Of a stretch of DNA of 64,000 nucleotides, positions 34,081 through 49,292 are shown in pieces. Position 1 is the stretch's first letter, and each line of letters opens with the position of its first letter. Both the position numbers and the translations under genes were made by a program. Source of the stretch: Pseudobutyrivibrio sp. GTDB taxonomy: Bacteria; Bacillota; Clostridia; Lachnospirales; Lachnospiraceae. The DNA lies in contig JAFYYR010000026.1 of assembly GCA_017557435.1 (NCBI GenBank), positions 124,001 through 188,000 of the forward strand, written 5' to 3'. The notes below the pieces were generated by a model. It did no database searches. It worked only from the letters and a program-made list of their open reading frames with translations, and was not told where the DNA came from.

Positions 34081-34735
34081 CAGGACCCTTTAGGTGATCT
34101 AATGGGCTCCCATGCCCCCACACGTAGCCCGGCACAAGGCCCCTTGGAGTATCGATTACGCGAATATTTTTAGTTTTTCACGCGTAAAAATTGACGCCAG
34201 CCATGTGTCTTTCTAAGAATGAACTGTTTTCAAAAATGTAGCTTTGCTGTGTGGACACATTTTAAGTTTCAATGGCAGTTTTGCAAAATGATTCTTGAGA
34301 GGGTGTTTGGGGCTCATAATACATTCACTAAGAAAAATTAAAAAGCAGGTTTTGTATATATATGCACCGTGGCACATTCGACATCGTGTCTCAGCGTGAC
34401 CACTGCTGCCGCCATCCTAGCGGCAGCTGCCTATATATTACAAAACCTGCTTTATATTTTTCTAAGTTCATTCCAAAATCGCCCCAAACACCCTCAGAAC
34501 CATTTTTTACTGCCATCTTGTAGTACCGTGTGTCCACACATAGGCTACTTTTTTGAAAACTGTAAAGGCTTGAGAAAGACACATGAAATGTATGGCGCCA
34601 ATTTGCGCAGTAGAAAAACAAAATATTCATGCGTTGATACACCAAGGGGCCTTGTGCCGAGCTAGGCGGGGGCATGGGAGCCTATACTTGTAGAAAAGGG
34701 GCCTGCTACTTGGCTGTTGAAAGCCGCGGCTGTGG
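34041..34735. repeat. Very long imperfect inverted repeat with branched apex
   Basis: The left arm from 34071 and the right arm ending 34715 match in inverted orientation over about 300 nt each, by eye about three quarters identical. Matching blocks include AGCCAAGTAGCAGG, GGCTCCCATGCCCCC, GGCACAAGGCCCCTTGG, ATGTGTCTTTCT, TGTGTGGACACA, GGGTGTTTGGGGC and AAGCAGGTTTTGTA. A further CCACAGCCGCG (34041) / CGCGGCTGTGG (34725) match extends it into the upstream gene. The apex splits into two hairpins: GTGG...CCAC (34369-34403) and GCTGCCGC/GCGGCAGC (34405-34427). No transposase or credible gene lies inside. Confidence 0.85.
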
Positions 34736-44362: not shown

Positions 44363-44391
44363 TTGACATAAAAAGCTTAAATAACTATACT
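44363..44391 (+). promoter_or_regulatory. Promoter of the asnS-asnA operon
   Basis: A consensus TTGACA (44363-44368) and TATACT (44386-44391) are separated by exactly 17 nt. The leader peptide gene starts 28 nt downstream of the -10 box. Confidence 0.88.
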
Positions 44392-44418
44392 TTACTCAAA
44401 TAAAGAAGGGGAACAGTC

Positions 44419-44493
44419 ATGGCATTTACATCTATGCTTAATAATCTCAATAATAACAATAATAATTCCGTGAATAATAATCAGGGAGTTTAG
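44419..44493 (+). CDS. Asn-rich leader peptide of the asnS attenuator
   Basis: 24 codons beginning MAFTSML. Eleven of 24 residues are asparagine: a pair (NN), a run of six, and a run of three near the end, followed by QGV and a TAG stop. AGAAGGGG lies upstream of the ATG at a good distance. It sits between a consensus promoter and a set of alternative hairpins ahead of asparaginyl-tRNA synthetase, the standard layout of an amino-acid attenuation leader. The peptide itself probably has no function; ribosome stalling at Asn codons when Asn-tRNA is scarce is the likely signal. Confidence 0.85.
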   Translation: MAFTSMLNNLNNNNNNSVNNNQGV

Positions 44494-44576
44494 TTTTATT
44501 GTGTTGATGAGATTTGAATGTTCCAGATAAACATGATTTAGAGAGCCTCATCAAGCTAGAGTTTGATGGGGCTTTT
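44427..44576 (+). promoter_or_regulatory. Transcription attenuator (antiterminator/terminator) of asnS-asnA
   Basis: Segment 1 is AATCTC within the leader codons. Segment 2, GTTGATGAGATT (44503-44514), can pair with it through GAGATT. Segment 2 TTGATGAG (44504-44511) also pairs perfectly with segment 3 CTCATCAA (44547-44554). Segment 3, extended as AGCCTCATCAA (44544-44554), pairs with segment 4 (44563-44573), making a terminator followed by a short T run. A ribosome stalled on Asn codons would cover segment 1, free segment 2 and favour antitermination. Confidence 0.82.
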
Positions 44577-44580
44577 ACTG

Positions 44581-44670
44581 TATCAAGGAGGGGCCCTTTA
44601 GGGAAGATTCCTTGATACACAGAACTGCCCATTGCCAAGGGCAATTTATAATGGCAGTTCTTCATTGAAA
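44581..44670 (+). repeat. 90-bp tandem repeat, unit 1
   Basis: Differs from unit 2 (44671-44760) at only three of 90 positions. Contains hairpin 1 (TATCAAGGA/TCCTTGATA with an inner CCC-TTTA-GGG) and hairpin 2 (AGAACTGCC/GGCAGTTCT enclosing ATTGCC-AAG-GGCAAT). Two of the three differences fall in the hairpin 2 loop, so the stems are unchanged. Confidence 0.93.
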
Positions 44671-44760
44671 TATCAAGGAGGGGCCCTTTAGGGAAGATTC
44701 CTTGATACACAGAACTGCCCATTGCCAGCGGCAATTTATAATGGCAGTTCTTCATTAAAA
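44671..44760 (+). repeat. 90-bp tandem repeat, unit 2
   Basis: Head-to-tail copy of the preceding unit with the same two hairpins; the inner loop reads AGC in place of AAG. It ends two nt before the asnS ribosome binding site (AGTTGAGGAG), so the mRNA leader of asnS carries four hairpins in a row after the attenuator. Confidence 0.93.
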
Positions 44761-44778
44761 AAGTTGAGGAGAAAAACA

Positions 44779-46179
44779 ATGAGCGTTAAAACCACAGACG
44801 TAAGAACACTTTCAAGAAATTTCAAAGATTATGGGGATAAGGAAGTTACTGTTGCTGGATGGGTTCGCAATATGCGTGATTCTAAGACATTCGGTTTCTT
44901 GGTACTTGCTGATGGTACTTTCTTCAACCCAGTACAGGTAGTATTTAATCAGGATAATATAGACAATTTCGACGAGGTTAGACGTCTTAATGTTGGCGCC
45001 GCAGTATATGTTACTGGTATTGTTACACTTACACCAGAAGCTAAGCAGCCATTTGAGATTCAGGCTACAAAAATTGAGGTAGAGGGCAAATCAACTCCTG
45101 ACTATCCAATCCAGCCTAAGAGACACACAATGGAATACCTTCGTACACAGACACATCTTCGTCCACGTACAAATACATTCCAGGCAGTATTTAGAGTTCG
45201 TTCACTTTGCGCTTATGCAATTCACAAGTTCTTCCAGGAGCGTGATTTCGTATATGTTCACACACCACTTATTACAGGTTCTGACTGTGAGGGTGCAGGT
45301 GAGATGTTCCAGGTTACAACAATGGACCTTAACAACATCCCTAAGACAGAGGATGGCGCTGTAGATTTCTCACAGGATTTCTTCGGTCACGCTACTAACC
45401 TTACAGTTTCTGGTCAGTTAAATGGTGAGACTTATGCACAGGCATTTAAGAACATCTACACATTTGGTCCTACATTCCGTGCAGAGAACTCTAACACAAC
45501 TCGCCATGCAGCAGAGTTCTGGATGATTGAGCCAGAGATTTCATTTGCAGATCTTGAGGATGACATGCAGCTCGCTGAGGAGATGATTAAGTTCATCATC
45601 AACTATGTTTTAGAGCATGCTCCAGAGGAGATGGAGTTCTTCAACAACTTCATCGACAAGGGACTTCTTGATAGACTTCATCATGTTGCTACATCAGACT
45701 TTGGTCGCATCACATACACAGATGCAGTTGCAGAGCTTGAGAAGCACAACGATGAATTTGACTACAAGGTATCTTGGGGCTGTGACCTTCAGACAGAGCA
45801 TGAGAGATACTTAACAGAGAAAATATTTGGTAAGCCTGTATTTGTTACAGATTATCCAAAGGAAATAAAGGCATTCTACATGAAGCTTAACGAAGACGGC
45901 AAGACTGTTGCAGCTATGGACTGTCTTGTACCTGGCATCGGAGAAATCATTGGCGGCTCACAGCGTGAGGATGACTACGATGTACTTCTTAAGAGAATGC
46001 AGGAGTGTGGTCTTAAGGAAGAAGACTATGGATTCTATCTTGATCTTCGTAAGTATGGTTCATCTCGCCACGCAGGCTTTGGACTTGGCTTTGAGCGTTG
46101 CGTAATGTACCTCACAGGAATGGGTAACATCCGTGATGTAATTCCATTCCCAAGAACTGTAGGTAACTGCGATTTATAA
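44779..46179 (+). CDS. asnS: Asparaginyl-tRNA synthetase
   Basis: 466-residue class IIb synthetase that charges tRNA-Asn. An N-terminal OB-fold anticodon-binding domain ([20 protein letters not shown]) precedes the catalytic core with motif 2 ([21 protein letters not shown]) region and motif 3 ([16 protein letters not shown]). ATG 44779 is chosen over an in-frame start at 44722 because AGTTGAGGAG lies 7 nt before it and [11 protein letters not shown] is the normal beginning. Expression is probably controlled by the Asn leader attenuator upstream. asnA follows in the same direction. Confidence 0.96.
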
Positions 46180-46367: not shown

Positions 46368-47378
46368 ATGAGTAAGATTTACATCCCGGAGGGTTATGCG
46401 TCGGCATTGGACCTTAAAGAGACACAGATTGCGATTAAGAAGGTTAAGGATTTTTTCCAGGCACAGCTTACAGCAGAACTTAATCTTCATCGTGTTACAG
46501 CTCCACTTTTTGTAGAGCCAGAATCTGGTCTTAACGACAATCTTAACGGTGTAGAAAGACCTGTTGCTTTCGGCGTTAAGGAGCAGGGTGATAAGGAAGT
46601 AGAAGTTGTTCATTCACTTGCTAAGTGGAAGAGAATGGCTCTTGGCAGATATAAGTTCAACGTAGGCGAAGGCCTTTACACAGACATGAATGCTATCCGT
46701 CGTGATGAAGATACAGATAATATTCATTCGATTTATGTTGACCAATGGGATTGGGAGTGTATAATAGAAAAGTCGGCTCGTAATGAGGAGACTCTTAAGA
46801 AGTATGTTAAGAGTGTCTATGCAGCACTTAGAGTCACAGAGAAATACATTGCGAATTCTTACGATTATGTAGAGTGTATTCTTCCTGAGGAGATTCACTT
46901 TATCACTACACAGGAGCTTGAGGACAGATGGCCTGAGCTTTCATCTAGTGAGCGTGAGTATGAGGCAGCCAAGGAATACGGAGCAATCTTCCTTATGAAG
47001 ATTGGCGATTTACTTGCTTCAGGTAAGAAGCATGACGGTCGTGCACCTGACTATGATGATTGGCAGTTAAATGGAGATATCATTGTTTACTACCCAGTTG
47101 ATGATATTTCACTTGAGCTTTCATCTATGGGTATCAGAGTAGACGAGGATAGTCTTAAGGCACAGCTTGATAAGGCTGGATGTCCTGAGAGGGCAGAGCT
47201 TCCATTCCAGAAGGCAGTTCTCGAGAAGAAGCTTCCATACACAATTGGTGGAGGTATCGGTCAGAGCCGTATCTGTATGTTCTTCCTTCGCAAGTGTCAT
47301 ATAGGAGAGGTTCAGTGTTCTTTCTGGCCAGAGAAAGATATTGCTTACGCTAGCGAAAGAGGCGTAATTATATTATAA
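46368..47378 (+). CDS. asnA: Aspartate-ammonia ligase (asparagine synthetase A)
   Basis: 336 residues, full length. AsnA makes asparagine from aspartate, ammonia and ATP, and is structurally related to class II synthetases. Family blocks include LNDNLNGVERPVAF, KWKRMALGRYKFNVGEG, LYTDMNAIRRDED, SIYVDQWDWE and the C-terminal GGGIGQSRICMFFL. AGGAGG precedes ATG 46368. Lying behind asnS, it places asparagine synthesis and tRNA-Asn charging under the same leader, so both should rise when charged tRNA-Asn falls. Confidence 0.96.
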   Translation: MSKIYIPEGYASALDLKETQIAIKKVKDFFQAQLTAELNLHRVTAPLFVEPESGLNDNLNGVERPVAFGVKEQGDKEVEVVHSLAKWKRMALGRYKFNVGEGLYTDMNAIRRDEDTDNIHSIYVDQWDWECIIEKSARNEETLKKYVKSVYAALRVTEKYIANSYDYVECILPEEIHFITTQELEDRWPELSSSEREYEAAKEYGAIFLMKIGDLLASGKKHDGRAPDYDDWQLNGDIIVYYPVDDISLELSSMGIRVDEDSLKAQLDKAGCPERAELPFQKAVLEKKLPYTIGGGIGQSRICMFFLRKCHIGEVQCSFWPEKDIAYASERGVIIL

Positions 47379-47645: not shown

Positions 47646-47936
47646 ATGAATAAAAAACTTGAGACAGCAGAAATGGATGAGCTTCTTCGTGCAATACTTA
47701 GTCTTGAGACAGTAGAAGAAGCATACGAGTTCTTTGAGGATTTATGTACAGTTAACGAGATGGTTGCCATGAAGCAGCGTTTCGAGGTGGCTAAGATGCT
47801 TCGCGAGGAGCGTACATATCAGGATATTGCAGACGAGACTGGTGCTAGTTCAGCTACTATCAGTCGAGTTAATCGTGCATTAAATTATGGCAATGACGGC
47901 TATGATTTAGTTCTCAACAGAATTAGTAATGATTAA
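47646..47936 (+). CDS. yerC: YerC/YecD family TrpR-related protein
   Basis: 96 residues. The TrpR-like helix-turn-helix is clear: CTVNEMVAMKQRFEVAKML, then TYQDIADETGASSATISRVN. Proteins of this family are small DNA-binding proteins related to the tryptophan repressor but generally not shown to bind tryptophan. It lies about 1.4 kb upstream of the trp operon, separated by minus-strand genes, so a regulatory link to trp is possible only as speculation. A terminator follows. Confidence 0.9.
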   Translation: MNKKLETAEMDELLRAILSLETVEEAYEFFEDLCTVNEMVAMKQRFEVAKMLREERTYQDIADETGASSATISRVNRALNYGNDGYDLVLNRISND

Positions 47937-49007: not shown

Positions 49008-49292
49008 AATAAAGTACTAAACCGATGAGGGAGAAGAGTACCTCTTCATGATGTCTAAGAGAGAGCTGCGATGGTGGGATGCAGTAGGATAGTGATTTGG
49101 GAATGGACTCCTGAGGGCGTGAGGAAATAACAGTTTTGTTAGAGTATTGCACGACGTAGGACATACGTTAGTTGTCATGGATATGTTGGTATCCTGTAAG
49201 CGCATGGCATAGTCATGAATTCAAGGTGGCACCGCGGATAAGAAATATTCGTCCTTGATGGAAACTTAAGGTTTCTGTCAGGGGCTTTTTTA
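49008..49292 (+). promoter_or_regulatory. Tryptophan T-box leader
   Basis: All main T-box parts can be read: the stem I base near 49020, AGAGAG (49050 area) with the apical GGTG loop, and the specifier codon TGG (Trp) at 49104-49106 in the usual GAA-TGG-A context. The T-box sequence AAGGTGGCACCGCGG lies at 49223-49237, and the antiterminator pairs CAAGG (49222) with CCTTG (49253). Uncharged tRNA-Trp should stabilise the antiterminator and switch on the trp operon. Confidence 0.95.
49251..49292 (+). terminator. T-box regulated terminator
   Basis: CCTTGATGGAAAC pairs with GTTTCTGTCAGGGG around TTAAG, followed by six T residues. It shares CCTTG with the antiterminator, so only one can form at a time. 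Confidence 0.92.

Follow-up and report, generated by a model that had tools for sequence, protein, structure and literature searches.

By sequence comparison, the leader upstream of asnS-asnA in Pseudobutyrivibrio is very probably a ribosome-mediated transcription attenuator that would sense charged tRNA-Asn. The leader frame, its Asn codons, regions 2, 3 and 4 of the RNA and the link to the downstream genes are conserved, and from these we infer ribosome stalling, kinetic formation of a 2:3 antiterminator and a response to Asn. If confirmed, asparagine would join the amino acids sensed through leader-peptide attenuation. The parts of the locus are given below, numbered within the window, by which we mean the whole 64,000-nt stretch of DNA analysed.

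44363..44391, + strand: sigma-70-type promoter (-35 TTGACA at 44363-44368, 17-nt spacer, -10 TATACT at 44386-44391)
44407..44412, + strand: ribosome binding site AGGGGA of the leader frame, 6 nt 5´ of the ATG
44419..44493, + strand: leader peptide frame, 24 codons plus stop, 11 Asn codons
44443..44448, + strand: region 1, AATCTC, within the leader frame, candidate partner of region 2
44464..44490, + strand: small hairpin at the last three Asn codons (AATTCC/GGAGTT outer, TGA/TCA inner), conserved in the genus
44504..44514, + strand: region 2, TTGATGAGATT
44544..44556, + strand: region 3, AGCCTCATCAAGC, partner of region 2 or region 4
44561..44576, + strand: region 4 and short T run, the 3´ half of the intrinsic terminator
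44541-44576, + strand: terminator hairpin, the 5´ arm of which doubles as partner of region 2
44779..46179, + strand: asnS, asparagine--tRNA ligase (TIGR00457 and NF003037 above cut-off, with a query starting at codon 2), the first gene under the proposed control
46368..47378, + strand: asnA, aspartate--ammonia ligase (TIGR00669 above cut-off), presumed second gene of the operon

The element is flanked by a chemotaxis-receptor gene on its 5´ side and by asnS-asnA on its 3´ side, and the asnS product is 100% identical over 465 residues to that of P. xylanivorans MZ8. An earlier note on this DNA had described a promoter with a 17-nt spacer, a 24-codon frame with 11 Asn codons and a ribosome binding site, and segments able to form 2:3 and 3:4 pairings ahead of a short T run, and all of these were found in the sequence where it had placed them. 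The promoter hexamers match the consensus at 11 of 12 positions. The frame runs from the ATG at 44419 to the stop at 44491-44493 and encodes MAFTSMLNNLNNNNNNSVNNNQGV, with Asn at 11 of 24 residues. No other frame of 18-45 aa in this DNA is as rich in Asn (one of 12 aa, on the opposite strand, has 6/12), and the fraction of 0.46 compares with at most 0.28 in 30 copies of the window generated by a first-order Markov model. Downstream, TTGATGAG (44504-44511) can pair with CTCATCAA (44547-44554) as 2:3, and AGCCTCATCAA (44544-44554) with TTGATGGGGCT (44563-44573) as 3:4; the two structures are mutually exclusive, as 2:3 overlaps the 5´ arm of the terminator. The terminator hairpin folds with 16 pairs and a 4-nt loop (-22.5 kcal/mol) and is followed by a short T run, TTTTACTG; a simple terminator scan of the window did not list it.

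Conservation was examined in 29 genomes of the genus, 27 of which carry asnS (26 in one piece and one split over two contigs). With the covariance model R2, the element was found before asnS in 25 of the 27 asnS-bearing genomes, and thus in 25 of all 29. Among the four others, the assemblies of G012 and G014 contain no asnS orthologue, and G009 and G018 keep the gene. In these last two (loci L099 and L093, minus strand, 2896-2902) the leader is gone and only 1 nt separates the receptor-gene stop from the asnS start, an arrangement suggesting that receptor gene and asnS are co-transcribed and that leader control was lost. Together with L025, a more distant locus labelled Pseudobutyrivibrio (asnS 83%) that has no leader, these two genomes count against the attenuator reading. 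In one further locus (L103) a contig end interrupts the element, leaving 24 complete leaders, all with Asn-rich frames of the kind that the earlier note had proposed to look for in relatives: they hold 10-14 Asn in 24-33 residues, with a longest Asn run of 4-9. The gene link is also kept, with asnA adjoining asnS in 24 of 26 loci and the remaining two (L095, L113) ending shortly past asnS.

It might be argued that a neutral AAT/AAC repeat tract of no regulatory consequence accounts for the Asn run and that the hairpin is a leaky terminator of the chemotaxis-receptor gene, given that the region is AT-rich, the hairpin lies ~200 nt past that gene and the T run is short. We consider this highly unlikely in view of the alignment. 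A near-consensus promoter separates the receptor gene from the leader, and its TTGAC and TATACTT columns do not vary in any of the 24 genus sequences; AGGRG is likewise present in the aligned rows at the leader ribosome binding site. AAT and AAC are mixed within the run, four Asn columns differ solely by AAT/AAC exchange, the start and frame are kept and length differences preserve the reading frame. The ratio pN/pS is 0.22 over 181 equal-length pairs and 0.14 for the final 17 codons (276 pairs), indicating purifying selection on the frame, and the Asn run is retained in all five leaders with divergent N-termini (L107, L109, L112, L113 and L114). Finally, a segment complementary to the terminator 5´ arm is conserved. 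The T tails after the terminator are poor in several leaders (4 to 7 T of 9). The spacing between terminator and asnS ranges from 29 to 207 nt, which argues against hiding of the asnS ribosome binding site, and transcriptional control by the attenuator is the likelier mode.

Within the genus, the 3:4 terminator was paired in 99.2% of alignment cells, with one-sided changes in five pairs and two-sided changes in none, and the 2:3 antiterminator in 99.5%, with seven of its eight pairs invariant and again no two-sided change. This lack of covariation may be explained by region 3 having to serve two partners. RNAalifold also detected the small hairpin at 44464-44490, the six outer pairs of which were present in 100% of cells (23 distinct sequences from the 24 leaders, with one-sided changes only), and one inner pair was broken in 1 of 24. 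When 39 aligned members of the wider family described below were considered, the terminator showed 18 two-sided cells, a number reached in 0 of 500 shuffles, and swapped arms never paired as well as its own, either in the full set of 39 or in the 31 non-asnS rows (0/2000 each), values that are inflated by kinship among the rows. The number of 3:4 pairs with a two-sided change was three and not unusual (257/500 shuffles), and within the eight asnS rows own arms had no advantage (2000/2000 swaps as good). For 2:3, a core of six pairs is held in every wider-family row with letters, with no covariation beyond shuffles or swaps (980/2000 swaps equally good). The covarying stems that the earlier note had proposed to look for in relatives are therefore seen for the terminator, in the wider family only, and not for 2:3.

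The 1:2 stem fared less well. The pairing of AATCTC (44443-44448) with GAGATT (44509-44514) claimed for the window is indeed possible there, but it is neither universal nor more stable than in codon-order shuffles. AATCTC occupies the same place in 18 of the 24 leaders, lies one codon later in L091 and elsewhere in L114, and is missing from L107, L109, L112 and L113. Across the 24 leaders, the pairing between leader and region 2 was matched or exceeded in stability by a fraction of 0.10-0.71 of codon-order shuffles. At the position used by the family, 0.67 of cells were paired in asnS rows, a value no higher than that given by partner swaps. In the wider family, 34 of 37 leaders had at least seven 1:2 pairs, with codon-order p ≤0.05 in only six; three two-sided pairs were found (12/500 shuffles equal, and slid controls gave the same or more), and partner swaps were not significant.

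Classical attenuators combine a codon run for the controlled amino acid with competing 2:3 and 3:4 hairpins and an intrinsic terminator. For the asnS leader, the ribosome would translate the Asn run while RNA polymerase is still making the leader. With plentiful Asn-tRNA it would reach the stop, 10 nt before region 2, and impede 2:3, so that 3:4 would form and transcription would end before asnS. With scarce Asn-tRNA it would be held in the Asn run, leaving region 2 free outside it to pair with region 3 as this emerges, and polymerase would read through into asnS-asnA, the products of which provide Asn-tRNA synthetase and a supply of asparagine. Across the 24 leaders the 2-3 segment folds at -9.3 to -17.6 and 3:4 at -18.6 to -21.2 kcal/mol; with the terminator the more stable, read-through would hinge on timing, the antiterminator being made first. 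We modelled stalled ribosomes with a footprint of ~13 nt. A ribosome anywhere in the Asn run is predicted to lie 5´ of region 2, and one at the stop at its edge. With the modelled ribosome at the first or last Asn codon, 2:3 pairs before region 4 exists; with stalls in the middle of the run, 2:3 faces competing structures. At the stop the remaining 2:3 pairing is weaker (-3.6 versus -6.4 kcal/mol), with five pairs still possible. In an untranslated leader, the model predicts that region 2 would be held by upstream structure and the terminator would form.

The cognate codon run, 2:3/3:4 competition, terminator and a gene using the same amino acid are shared with trp, his and pheST of enterobacteria; the asnS leader differs in its amino acid, its genes, its occurrence in Lachnospiraceae, its apparent descent from a dispersed family and the lack of a universal 1:2 stem. 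A 2005 survey names pheST and Streptomyces trpS and leuS as cases of attenuation, and reports that classical attenuation controlled no synthetase gene in Firmicutes (PMC1262725). A His leader peptide ahead of hisS* and hisZ of bacilli was predicted in 2010 (PMC2965389), and leader peptides at synthetase-family genes in Firmicutes thus have a precedent. Those leaders resemble the present one in being predicted before a synthetase-family gene where others use a T-box; they are specific for His and found in bacilli, and the likeness considered here is one of layout. Ribosome-mediated amino-acid sensing is also described for His attenuators of Firmicutes his operons (PMC9413887), the Leu-rich attenuator of S. 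aureus ilv (PMC5794164) and the branched-chain leader attenuator Rli60 of Listeria (PMC5864092), which differ from the asnS leader in preceding biosynthetic operons and sensing other amino acids. The earlier note knew of no described asnS leader-peptide attenuator in Lachnospiraceae. In the open-access literature searched, we found neither an Asn leader attenuator nor the VNxxQG family introduced below; subscription papers are largely outside that coverage.

Control of asnS by a T-box or a metabolite riboswitch is extremely unlikely. Such control has precedents: asnS is reported as T-box-controlled in no more than a few Firmicutes, but frequently as second gene of a T-box operon (PMC2494555), and Rfam scans of 40 other asnS loci placed a T-box before the gene in two, L024 and L026. 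In the window, however, no Rfam family reached its gathering score upstream of asnS, and the T-box core was not found within two mismatches in the leader-bearing loci L001-L005; the T-box identity of the leader (RF00230) was accordingly rejected, neither family model nor core matching. Of a set of 80 loci fetched by asnS, five had the leader, all labelled Pseudobutyrivibrio, and the 40 scanned loci are among the other 75. In these 75, mostly labelled Lachnospiraceae and including L025, the best-scoring frame listed held at most six Asn in 47-55 residues and the family covariance model gave no match below E 0.1. No family-model match was obtained in 12 further asnS loci, including the two leaderless genus members, nor is asnS preceded by a family element in ten genomes of other genera, all of which have the family at other sites. 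A second match in the window's own genome (C14:181222, E 8.5e-4) is probably due to chance, as both strands matched and no frame had at least seven Asn.

Elements related to the asnS leader were found before other genes. The covariance model R1, built from the genus leaders, matched two Pseudobutyrivibrio genomes and one genome each from four other genera among 397 Lachnospiraceae genomes; in the four other genera a homologous leader precedes acetyltransferase or methyltransferase genes. R2 matched 38 of the 397 at E ≤0.05 (nine below 1e-6, many weak) and, in a separate set, 26 of 40 genomes of one Butyrivibrio-like genus with up to five sites per genome. The asnS product in five of these genomes is 85-99% identical over ~300 residues to that of Butyrivibrio sp. 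INlla16, and the genus is Butyrivibrio or a near relative. Nine Pseudobutyrivibrio genomes have a further copy at E <2e-6 with R2, and those read lie before GNAT, GNAT-methyltransferase or methyltransferase genes. The loci of the family are as follows.

Family loci outside asnS: L121-L124, L143-L146, L148, L149, L167-L189, L192-L195, L244-L254, L258-L262

Fourteen of the loci analysed were added from further R2 matches that had lacked one, and counts omit the weaker R2 matches L151-L166. A script extracted the leader in 37 of the first 42 non-asnS loci, and the five misses were recovered in a later round of 20 loci, which yielded 15 leaders; there L255-L257 had no terminator by the script pattern, and L258 and L259 failed it though intact by eye. 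Matches at L147, L150 and L190 were chance-like and L191 had a leader-like frame without terminator; all four were excluded from the counts. The peptides commonly show, after the start, L-V/I-N or a variant of it close to the N-terminus and then P/S-V-N-x-x-Q-G. As the script demanded V-N-x-x-Q-G/E, the frequency of this motif among the 37 is partly imposed. Among the 15 leaders for which the motif was not demanded, Q-G or Q-E was present in eight and lacking in L146, L148, L149, L244 and L260-L262. The asnS leader carries the family DNA signature, CCGTGAAY-n-ATCAGGGG, a region 2 that lies within or shortly after the frame, and CCTYATC in region 3 of the terminator. Region 2 lies within the frame in all 37 non-asnS leaders (by a loose pattern) and in asnS leaders L112 and L114; in the other 22 asnS leaders the stop is 12-13 nt before the GATGAG core of region 2.

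With Pfam assignments taken from cluster members or representatives and not from every protein, the first open frame after the 37 leaders fell into a GNAT/methyltransferase cluster in 24 cases, a second GNAT cluster in eight and, in three, a cluster whose representative is a phosphorylase-superfamily protein, with one MarR-type regulator and one GNAT-domain protein; no tRNA synthetase-like product was among them. The proteins downstream of L249 and L251 had Pfam matches below cut-off only. Rfam gave no match at eight family loci, one of them an asnS copy. Tetracycline ribosomal-protection genes were considered as a second user of the leader, and one narrow pattern was absent in seven loci scanned, of nine above-cut-off matches listed. 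Thirteen viral contigs with the DNA motif gave short or weak model matches only, and plasmid and phage collections nothing but short chance matches. If confirmed, the family would point to GNAT and methyltransferase gene sets that are probably inducible and offer a route to what the enzymes protect against.

We compared the asnS copies with the rest of the family in an alignment (A5) of 31 of the 37 non-asnS and 8 of the 24 asnS leaders. In short, midpoint-rooted trees the asnS leaders formed one clade, with support of 0.86 from 183 columns and 0.63 from the 134 columns from the motif on. L247, a Pseudobutyrivibrio leader before a GNAT-methyltransferase gene, was nearest neighbour in the 134-column tree and not sister in the 183-column tree, and is identical to asnS leader L112 at 42 of 45 nt; L245 and L248, also from Pseudobutyrivibrio, were placed away from the clade in both trees. 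The Asn fraction averages 0.46 (0.39-0.50) in 11 distinct asnS peptides and 0.14 (maximum 0.30) in 48 distinct others (from 37 + 12 leaders, with L134, L149 and L254 omitted), and the longest Asn run in those 48 is 1-3. A single clade with Asn-richer peptides suggests that an existing attenuator, possibly one sensing translation stress, was captured by asnS and retuned by its Asn-codon run. The simplest history, its direction taken from distribution and tree, seems to be a single capture, followed by lengthening of the Asn run and, later, by an upstream shift of the stop codon. The trp/his-type attenuation proposed in the earlier note is supported as to its Asn codons, translation signals, 2:3 and 3:4 segments and asnS-asnA link, all conserved across the genus, but not as an isolated trp/his-like invention: trees and sequence suggest that the leader derives from a family of attenuators dispersed over other loci.

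The common peptide motif, pairing segments and part order shared with members before acetyltransferase or methyltransferase genes also fit a leader that responds to slowed translation in general, as ribosome-targeting compounds would cause, with the Asn run secondary. There is precedent in the antibiotic-responsive leader attenuator bmrB of B. subtilis (PMC4191407); with the toiL uORF of E. coli, which acts on translation and Rho-dependent termination (PMC12121999), it may be a functional analogue of the GNAT/methyltransferase members. We nevertheless regard this reading of the asnS leader as improbable: long Asn runs are restricted to the asnS copies, the leader frame is under purifying selection and a drug response of the relatives is itself hypothetical. 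Returning to the Asn-specific attenuator, the fuller account would begin with attenuators that sense translation stress, dispersed in Butyrivibrio and relatives, where they control acetyltransferase and methyltransferase genes of a protective kind. One would have been taken over by asnS, a single time, in the lineage of Pseudobutyrivibrio, made specific by a run of Asn codons and later shortened to stop before region 2; the RNA switch would have stayed fixed while codon replacement changed what it senses. The chances for and against this account appear to us evenly balanced. If it is confirmed, the likely parent of an attenuator could be read in living relatives, and how an attenuator changes its signal would become testable.

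Other features of the window were noted. Between the terminator and asnS (44578-44762) lie two tandem copies of a ~92-bp two-hairpin element, with no Rfam match. Five more copies (80-112 nt, 81-87%) occur in the genome, each with an open frame beginning 68-127 nt past the match start; some of the genes that follow look like housekeeping genes, apparently for ATP synthase b, an ABC-F protein, malic enzyme and NifU. The element is possibly an undescribed 5´-UTR element. After asnA, a YerC/YecD TrpR-related gene was found at 47646-47936; the HisR regulators of Firmicutes are of the TrpR family according to one study (PMC9413887). A TwoAYGGAY RNA (RF01731, 63 bits) lies on the minus strand at 34317-34477. 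The T-box that the earlier note had assigned to trp was confirmed by Rfam (RF00230) at 49016-49259, before trpD, which places two kinds of tRNA-charging sensor within 5 kb.
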